From: Burkholderiales bacterium
GTDB lineage: Bacteria; Pseudomonadota; Gammaproteobacteria; Burkholderiales; JAEUOS01
Assembly (NCBI GenBank): GCA_947473125.1
Contig: CANJDH010000023.1
Span: 1 to 52,835 of the forward strand
DNA: 52,835 nt
Direction of reading: 5' to 3'
The position numbers were made by a program, and so were the translations under genes. The notes under the pieces are model-generated. The model searched no databases, was not told the origin of the DNA, and saw only the letters and a list, made by a program, of their open reading frames with translations. This document shows, one piece after another, positions 11,483 through 12,350 of this stretch. Within the stretch, counting starts at the first letter, position 1; each line of letters begins with the position of its first letter.

Positions 11483-11851
11483 ATGACTCGCTCCATCATC
11501 CTGTTTGCCCATGGGGCCCGCGACCCGGAATGGGCGCGGCCGTTCGAACGCTTGCGCGCCAGCCTGGTGGCGCGCAGCCCGTCCACACCGGTGGCCCTGG
11601 CCTACCTGGAATTCATGCAACCCGACCTGGCCGGCGCCGTGACGGCGCAGGCCGCGGCCGGCGCCACCAGCATCGACATCGTTCCTGTGTTCATGGCGCA
11701 GGGGGCGCACCTGAAGCGTGATCTGCCGAAACTGCTCGAGGGGCTTGGCGCCAGCCATCCCGCCGTCACCTTTCGACTCCAGCCGCCGGTGGGCGAAGCA
11801 CAGGCCGTGCTTGACGCGATTGCCAGCCACATCGAGGCGACGCTGGCATAG
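11483..11851 (+). CDS. cbiX: Short CbiX-type sirohydrochlorin chelatase-like protein
   Basis: A 122-residue protein of the small CbiX (class II chelatase) type. The N-terminal metal-site motif is FAHGARDPEW and a second element is DIVPVFMAQGAHLKRDLP, which carries the second conserved His. Family members insert cobalt or nickel into sirohydrochlorin or, in some bacteria, iron for sirohaem. Which metal applies here cannot be told. It lies 38 bases after rng on the same strand and may be co-transcribed. No other cobalamin genes are in the window. Confidence 0.85.
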   Translation: MTRSIILFAHGARDPEWARPFERLRASLVARSPSTPVALAYLEFMQPDLAGAVTAQAAAGATSIDIVPVFMAQGAHLKRDLPKLLEGLGASHPAVTFRLQPPVGEAQAVLDAIASHIEATLA

Positions 11852-11871
11852 GCGACGCGCATGGCCCGGAT

Positions 11872-11903
11872 GCGGGCGGTTTGATCCTGATCAAACCGCC
11901 CGC
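11872..11903. repeat. 32-bp palindrome with 15-bp perfect arms around an FNR box
   Basis: The left arm 11872-11886 is the exact reverse complement of 11889-11903, with CT between. The centre holds the FNR-type box. The outer GC-rich arms extend the symmetry well beyond what FNR needs. No T-run follows, so it is not a simple terminator for cbiX. Confidence 0.85.
11881..11894 (+). promoter_or_regulatory. FNR/Anr-type box, class II arrangement before the DUF465 gene
   Basis: TTGATCCTGATCAA is a perfect match to the FNR consensus TTGAT-N4-ATCAA. A -10-like TAGGAT lies at 11916-11921. With transcription starting at 11928-11929, the box centre falls at -40.5 to -41.5, the standard activating position for FNR. 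A GGAGG ribosome-binding sequence (11939-11943) precedes the ATG at 11948. Confidence 0.8.
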
Positions 11904-11947
11904 GCAATGCACGCTTAGGATGGAGCCATTCCCACCACGGAGGCGCC

Positions 11948-12187
11948 ATGCAAGTCGAACATCACCCCCTGATCACCGAATTCCCCGAGCTTCGCGAAAA
12001 AATTCACACGCTCAAAGGCAGCAATGACCACTTCGCACGCCTGGCCGAGCGCTATGAAGTGCTCGACAAGCAGATCGTGCGCGCCGAAGACGGCATCGAG
12101 CCCTGCGCCGACGCGTTGCTGGAGAATCTCAAAAAGCAGCGCCTGGCCCTGAAAGACGACTTGTACGGCCTGCTCACGCGCGCATGA
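11948..12187 (+). CDS. YdcH/DUF465 family small protein
   Basis: A 79-residue, highly charged and largely helical protein typical of DUF465 (HHPLITEFPELREKIHTLK at the start, LKKQRLALKDDLYGLL at the end). A coiled coil is likely across residues 15-75. The family function is unknown. A GGAGG sequence is placed four bases before the ATG. Upstream lies a perfect FNR-type box at the right spacing for activation, so expression is probably raised when oxygen is low; this is inference from the site. It is followed by tRNA-Ala on the same strand. Confidence 0.9.
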   Translation: MQVEHHPLITEFPELREKIHTLKGSNDHFARLAERYEVLDKQIVRAEDGIEPCADALLENLKKQRLALKDDLYGLLTRA

Positions 12188-12200
12188 CTGCACGAACCGG

Positions 12201-12228
12201 AAGACACCCCGCTGATTTTTGCTAGAAT
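12201..12228 (+). promoter_or_regulatory. Candidate promoter of tRNA-Ala
   Basis: AAGACA (12201-12206), 16 bases, TAGAAT (12223-12228), ending 12 bases before the tRNA. The -35 matches four of six consensus bases. Confidence 0.5.
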
Positions 12229-12240
12229 CGCTGCAGATTC

Positions 12241-12316
12241 GGGGAAGTAGCTCAGCTGGGAGAGCGTCGCGTTCGCAATGCGGAGGTCGAGGGTTCGATC
12301 CCCTTCTTCTCCACCA
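12241..12316 (+). tRNA. tRNA-Ala (anticodon CGC)
   Basis: A 76-base tRNA with acceptor GGGGAAG/CTTCTCC. It contains the G3-U70 wobble pair that defines alanine tRNAs. The anticodon loop is TTCGCAA (CGC, reading GCG), the T-arm is GAGGG-TTCGATC-CCCTT, followed by A73 and an encoded CCA. A strong terminator follows six bases later. Confidence 0.96.
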
Positions 12317-12321
12317 AATCC

Positions 12322-12350
12322 AAAAGGCGCCCTGCGGGGCGCCTTTTTTT
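12322..12350 (+). terminator. Rho-independent terminator of tRNA-Ala
   Basis: AAAAGGCGCCC, loop TGCG, GGGCGCCTTTT, extending into a run of seven T. It has an 11-bp stem and a clear U-tract, so it is a textbook intrinsic terminator. Confidence 0.92.

Follow-up and report, generated by a model that had tools for sequence, protein, structure and literature searches.

How is the gene of a small DUF465 protein controlled when its upstream region carries a perfect FNR-type box that is itself embedded in a 32-bp palindrome? This question was raised by a locus in the window, the term used here for the whole analysed stretch of 52,835 nt from a Burkholderiales genome. An earlier note on this DNA had proposed that the DUF465 gene is controlled by an FNR-type promoter of class II. 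Comparison supported this claim well: the box recurs upstream of related genes, its distance to the -10 sequence is constant, no fixed gene neighbourhood accompanies it, and the genome encodes a canonical FNR with targets of the low-oxygen type.

Layout of the palindrome, the promoter and the DUF465 gene

An unstranded inverted repeat of 32 bp with perfect arms of 15 bp and a centre of 2 nt is located at 11872-11903 (GCGGGCGGTTTGATC-CT-GATCAAACCGCCCGC). It contains the 14-bp box TTGATCCTGATCAA on the plus strand at 11881-11894, which is flanked by the left outer arm GCGGGCGGT (11872-11880) and the right outer arm ACCGCCCGC (11895-11903), both without strand. The earlier description of a perfect TTGAT-N4-ATCAA box with outer arms that extend the symmetry to 32 bp was thus confirmed. 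An exact genome search found the inverted repeat as a single copy in the 4.88 Mb assembly, and the window harbors no other perfect inverted repeat with arms longer than 13 bp and a loop of up to 8 nt. The box is also the sole perfect TTGAT-N4-ATCAA in the window. When one mismatch was allowed, the window showed two matches compared to a mean of 0.72 in shuffled sequence; since 15 of 100 shuffles also reached two matches, the number of boxes in the window is unremarkable by itself.

The hexamer TAGGAT (11916-11921, plus strand) matches TATAAT in four of six positions and lies 21 nt past the box, which is the spacing of class II promoters. The predicted transcription start is an A at 11928 on the plus strand, 7 nt past the -10 sequence. 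With this start, as inferred from the sequence, the box would be centered at about -40.5, in line with the position of -40.5 to -41.5 previously claimed for a box combined with a TAGGAT -10 sequence. A likely ribosome binding site, GGAGG, follows at 11939-11943 (plus strand, from sequence).

The gene starts with an ATG at 11948, extends to 12187 on the plus strand and encodes 79 aa. Its product matches DUF465 (PF04325) with 58.6 bits at a family cut-off of 25 and is of the full-length type, with the N-terminus MQVEHHPL..EFPE. It fails the YdcH equivalog (NF008505, PRK11415), with a score of 38 against a curated cut-off of 91. AlphaFold predicted an all-helical protein with long helices at residues 27-47 and 55-78 (mean pLDDT 88). 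Among solved structures, HP1242 of Helicobacter pylori (PDB 1zhc) was the sole relative that is credible by sequence (E 1.2e-8) and also the best fold match (TM 0.60), the fold match being weak alone (E 0.08). A complex of RNA polymerase with Gfh1 was rejected as a structural relative of DUF465 (rank 37, E 6.8, not significant). A second DUF465 match of the same genome (L235, 1409-2254, minus strand) is located toward the C-terminus of a longer open frame, which is of dissimilar sequence (MLTAEDIEAIQQ...) and has a putative start.

Recurrence of the box upstream of DUF465 relatives

The box was searched in three sets of loci, namely 13 named Oxalobacteraceae loci, 109 places with relatives from the order and 89 from the class (Gammaproteobacteria in the GTDB scheme). 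The assignment of the order to Burkholderiales agrees with G238, a genome placed in the order of the window, whose DUF465 locus is identical to the one in a named record of Undibacterium aquatile. The order search sampled 399 genomes, of which 116 matched, and the class search sampled 369, of which 124 matched, the window's own genome being included in both numbers of matches. After removal of one duplicate and one locus with a short upstream region, 210 loci were counted, including the window. A locus was called boxed when a box with at most one mismatch was present at -140 to -40.

Ten of the 13 Oxalobacteraceae loci were boxed. The order set differed strongly by protein type, with boxes at 19/58 loci of the full-length type (window included) and at 2/51 loci of the short type, and in the class set only 15/88 loci had a box directly upstream. 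When the sets were pooled, 44/159 loci of the full-length type (window included) were boxed at -140 to -40, compared to 3/159 in the next control window further upstream, 4/158 in the one after it and 13/158 at -440 to -340. Four of these last 13 boxes (L169, L198, L212, L217) precede a dksA-like first gene, seven share the motif NTGATGA(G/A)CATCAA in loci of families f14 and f43, which we take to sit in a neighbouring gene, and two are unexplained. Both types together had boxes at 45 of 203 loci, while dinucleotide shuffles gave an expectation of 0.92; five alternative spacer lengths resulted in zero or one boxed locus among the 203.

The position of the -10-like hexamer, defined by A at position 2, T at position 6 and at least four of six matches, played no part in choosing the boxes. 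Such a hexamer started 21-22 nt past the box at 32/46 boxed loci (Oxalobacteraceae 10/10, order 14/21, class 8/15), and other two-base offsets scored 0-4. We regard this constant -10 position as the best evidence for the predicted class II architecture.

The neighbourhood of the gene did not show such constancy. The boxed full-length loci of the order set span nine families (f1, f7, f13, f15, f20, f21, f22, f32 and f51), and their flanking ORFs, which are unannotated, vary between families. By BLAST, rng or cbiX was found in 0/116 relative loci, many of the stretches reaching just 700 nt past the match, which rules out a conserved rng-cbiX-DUF465 neighbourhood at this scope. From the differing flanks and the lack of rng and cbiX in these loci, we concluded that the box moves together with DUF465.

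Seventeen perfect TTGAT-N4-ATCAA sites are present genome-wide, an excess over the six obtained when the spacer is shortened to N3. These six control matches and the location of at least one perfect box (L010) inside a long ORF are nevertheless what would be expected if the match upstream of DUF465 had arisen by chance and had no role. We consider this extremely unlikely in view of the recurrence, the spacing and the changing neighbourhoods across families.

The distribution of the box among relatives was uneven. The earlier note had made conservation of the box in related genomes a check on the promoter. This held for the nearest relatives, as boxes were present in 15 of the 17 relatives that scored best in the order search (a cut chosen after looking) and in 18 of the best 29. 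It did not hold for the full-length order-set loci at large: 39/58 are boxless, and 27 of these 39 come from genomes in which an FNR-like match was found. Families f14, f18, f29, f38, f39, f41, f43 and f48 have no box, and family f20 has one at 1/10 loci, even though most of these, f41 and f43 aside, do contain an FNR-like match. The 19 boxed loci all belong to genomes with such a match (none without), while the unboxed loci comprise 27 with and 12 without; the Fisher p value of 0.005 is inflated by kinship, with f41 and f43 accounting for 10 of the 12 negatives. FNR-type control of DUF465, as predicted from these boxes, is common near the lineage of the window and sporadic further out. Relatives on plasmids were found in 18 records, all with less than 60% identity and with no near source among them.

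The outer arms and the rng-cbiX setting

The box is accompanied by nine contiguous outer symmetric pairs in the window, compared to at most three in the 45 other boxed loci and at most five at the 16 other perfect sites of the own genome. On these numbers, we rejected the idea that the outer arms belong to the conserved elements of the FNR promoter. Being seen in this genome only, they appear to be unneeded by FNR, as judged from the sequence comparison. The next longest arms of the genome are the symmetric GGGGC/GCCCC (5 bp) around a perfect box at about 1501 of L004 (contig C10).

Template switching during replication can correct imperfect palindromes. We see about an even chance that the outer arms were produced in this way and are functionless. 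Arms of this kind were found in none of the boxed relatives examined, and nine consecutive matches are improbable by independent substitution: if bases are taken as independent, nine outer pairs are expected with a probability of about 1e-5 per site and 1-2e-4 over the 17 sites. Against this origin stands the failure to find a close ancestor whose palindrome is imperfect.

The cbiX gene (11483-11851, plus strand) follows a gene of the RNase E/G family and is a neighbour outside the DUF465 unit. Downstream of DUF465, a tRNA-Ala (CGC) is encoded at 12241-12316 on the plus strand. The symmetry had been suggested to fold at the end of the rng-cbiX message, and the energy allows this: as RNA, the palindrome folds with -27.2 kcal/mol (z -5.2, no shuffle being as good), and the G+C-rich hairpin begins 20 nt past the cbiX stop codon. 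With these properties, the 15-bp-arm hairpin might chiefly be an RNA element, acting as a 3'-end stabiliser or remaining from a terminator of rng-cbiX, which overlaps the box accidentally. In the genomes G002 and G003, in which a different ORF follows cbiX, short G+C-rich repeats with arms of 6-7 bp occur within 25 nt of the stop codon; they are the sole hint toward an ancestral rng-cbiX terminator. However, no U-tract follows the hairpin on either strand (the sequence past 11903 is GCAATGCACGC), and a terminator scan reported none. The same-family genomes G004 and G001 have tRNA-Ala(CGC) directly behind rng-cbiX, at distances of 69 and 55 nt, respectively, from the cbiX stop, and neither DUF465 nor an inverted repeat of at least 6 bp is present in between, so that the suggested hairpin has no counterpart there. 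Arms near 15 bp were found after cbiX in none of G001-G004, and the outer symmetry of at most 3 bp in the 45 other boxed loci also argues against an RNA element. We consider a chief role as an RNA element quite unlikely, and the idea that the outer arms represent an ancestral terminator of rng-cbiX was rejected on the synteny of G001 and G004 together with the lack of a U-tract.

Since transcription is predicted to start downstream of the palindrome, the hairpin would be present in read-through transcripts only. Most likely, the outer arms are neutral or a minor read-through element. No known RNA family matched the palindrome up to E 0.1; the sole matches in the surroundings were the tRNA and, below threshold, isrK at 12269-12349.

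As cbiX and tRNA-Ala are adjacent in G001 and G004, the palindrome and DUF465 form an extra unit in the window genome. No match to the window DUF465 protein was found in G001-G004, which are 84-92% complete. Comparison of positions 11852-12240 of the window with the corresponding loci L236 and L239 shows the DUF465 unit between cbiX and tRNA-Ala(CGC) as either a gain here or a loss there.

FNR, DksA-like genes and comparison with known systems

The genome of the window encodes an FNR (L018, 922-1677) that reaches a score of 247.7 for the NCBIfam Fnr family, with a cut-off of 228. Alignment to solved regulators of the FNR type revealed an N-terminal C-x2-C-x5-C, a later cysteine in VC-IP and an ETxSR helix. 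We take the cysteines to be the ligands and the E..SR helix to make the recognition contacts. Other perfect boxes of this genome are located at a Usp gene, at a gene for cytochrome oxidase subunit I, which we read as ccoN, in the hemN/fnr intergenic region and at a heavy-metal ATPase gene. At the Usp and oxidase subunit I genes, a -10-like hexamer likewise lies 21 nt from the box. At 10/17 perfect sites, no such hexamer is present at 20-23 nt on either strand, and at least one box (L010) lies inside a long ORF; only some of the sites resemble class II promoters.

Very probably, FNR becomes active under oxygen limitation and turns on class II transcription of DUF465 from the box at about -41. 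From the box, its spacing, its recurrence in relatives and the FNR protein, all found by computation, we infer binding, start site and low-oxygen induction as follows. On falling oxygen, the four-cysteine FNR would dimerise, and the dimer would bind to TTGATCCTGATCAA. The bound FNR would recruit RNA polymerase to the TAGGAT -10 sequence, and the one-gene DUF465 unit with its small helical product would be turned on.

The genome encodes at least four proteins of the CRP/FNR type. One of them (L015) adjoins two perfect boxes, and its best NCBIfam match is FtrB, with a score of 93 at a cut-off of 211. The site could thus be bound mainly by another member of this family with TTGAT specificity (Dnr, FixK or FtrB-like, for example the L015 protein), with NO, heme stress or another cue as the signal. 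Excerpts of PMC5934665 describe paralogous Fnr proteins of Herbaspirillum that act on closely similar sites. Such control by another regulator is unlikely: a canonical four-cysteine FNR is present, perfect boxes lie at the Usp and oxidase subunit I genes and at hemN/fnr, and all boxed full-length loci of the order set (19/19) come from genomes having an FNR-like match. The set of boxed genes in the window genome resembles the targets that these excerpts give for the Herbaspirillum Fnr proteins. FNR itself remains our preferred regulator of the DUF465 promoter.

A link to DksA-like genes was observed in the class set. At 18 loci, DUF465 has a same-strand neighbour that is DksA-like or a short relative of such a gene; at a nineteenth (L173), this neighbour is encoded on the other strand. 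A C4 zinc-finger protein is the product of 15 of the 18 same-strand neighbours. These 15 compact two-gene units, which occur in either gene order and outside the order of the window (L146, L151, L152, L165, L166, L168, L169, L175, L185, L188, L194, L198, L200, L212 and L217), are preceded by an FNR box in 11 cases, namely in five of the six units with DUF465 as the first gene and in six of the nine with the dksA-like gene first. The 15 units span 10 genera and the 11 boxed units eight, so not all of them are independent. At the remaining loci (L160, L186 and L224), all three of which are boxed, DUF465 has a neighbour of about 70 residues. These neighbours are alike among each other, and their kinship to DksA is uncertain because the C4 motif is absent in the stretch read. 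At L186, the short protein and DUF465 share one ORF of 156 residues, possibly a natural fusion. An adjacent DksA-like gene was present at 8/15 boxed loci of the class set compared to 11/73 unboxed loci (Fisher p 0.003), and six loci that were counted as unboxed have a box upstream of the dksA-like gene instead. In the order set, a dksA-like gene next to DUF465 was not detected by BLAST within the stretches covered. In the window genome, another locus (L240, 710-1641, contig C2) comprises a perfect box and, 21 nt from it, a -10-like hexamer, followed by uspA and by a zf-dksA_traR gene that begins 9 nt after uspA.

Published data link genes of this type to FNR proteins elsewhere. According to excerpts of PMC5934665, Fnr1 of Herbaspirillum directly regulates the dksA-phaC2-fabI operon, and the available parts of PMC8575079 and PMC8087004 list PA4577, a TraR-type gene of Pseudomonas aeruginosa, among the genes tied to Anr. 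Tentatively, and with a somewhat less than even chance of being right, we propose that full-length-type DUF465 belongs to a low-oxygen module with DksA/TraR-like proteins, and that this pair is split in the window genome into two boxed units, uspA-dksA-like and DUF465. DUF465 might assist or temper a stress response directed at RNA polymerase or ribosomes when respiration is limited. The association with DksA-like genes is a lead to the function of DUF465.

The family has no assigned function, yet the window protein as the sole query matched 116/399 sampled genomes of the order and 124/369 of the class (window's own included). The recurring promoter of the oxygen type and the units shared with DksA-like genes would make DUF465 a testable part of the low-oxygen response. 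The promoter predicts the condition under which a DUF465 knockout should show a phenotype, and the DksA-like gene is a candidate partner.

A text search of the open literature, supplementary tables lying outside it, found no paper on DUF465 together with FNR or on PF04325. FNR control of the ydcH gene was not reported in those literature passages that pair YdcH with FNR. FNR control of DUF465 was thus not found reported; the promoter type itself is already known.

YdcH of Escherichia coli is presumably a DUF465 protein of the short type. It is in the same Pfam family as the window protein (NCBIfam PRK11415 for YdcH), whereas the latter has an additional N-terminal EHH..EFPE segment, and genes of the short type were boxed in just 2/51 loci of the order set. 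Excerpts of two papers mention ydcH, one in a table on pH and oxygen limitation (PMC1626474) and one as linked to H2O2 and OxyR on transcriptome evidence (PMC4207228). HP1242 (1zhc), related to the window DUF465 by sequence and fold, was deposited as a hypothetical protein. The Anr-linked PA4577 of P. aeruginosa, as far as the excerpts show, is similar in that a DksA/TraR-type gene is tied to an FNR orthologue, as in the class units and the uspA unit of the window genome; in contrast, DUF465 in the window stands alone without a DksA-like neighbour.

The closest parallel to the layout of the promoter comes from class II promoters activated by FNR. In E. coli, FNR activates such promoters from a TTGAT-N4-ATCAA box near -41. 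The window shares with them the box near -41, the distance to the -10-like sequence and a canonical FNR encoded in the genome. For the fnr1 promoter of H. seropedicae, the available part of PMC5934665 gives a box centered at -42. The window promoter differs from these known class II promoters in its target, DUF465, and in the position of its box inside additional symmetric arms of 9 bp.
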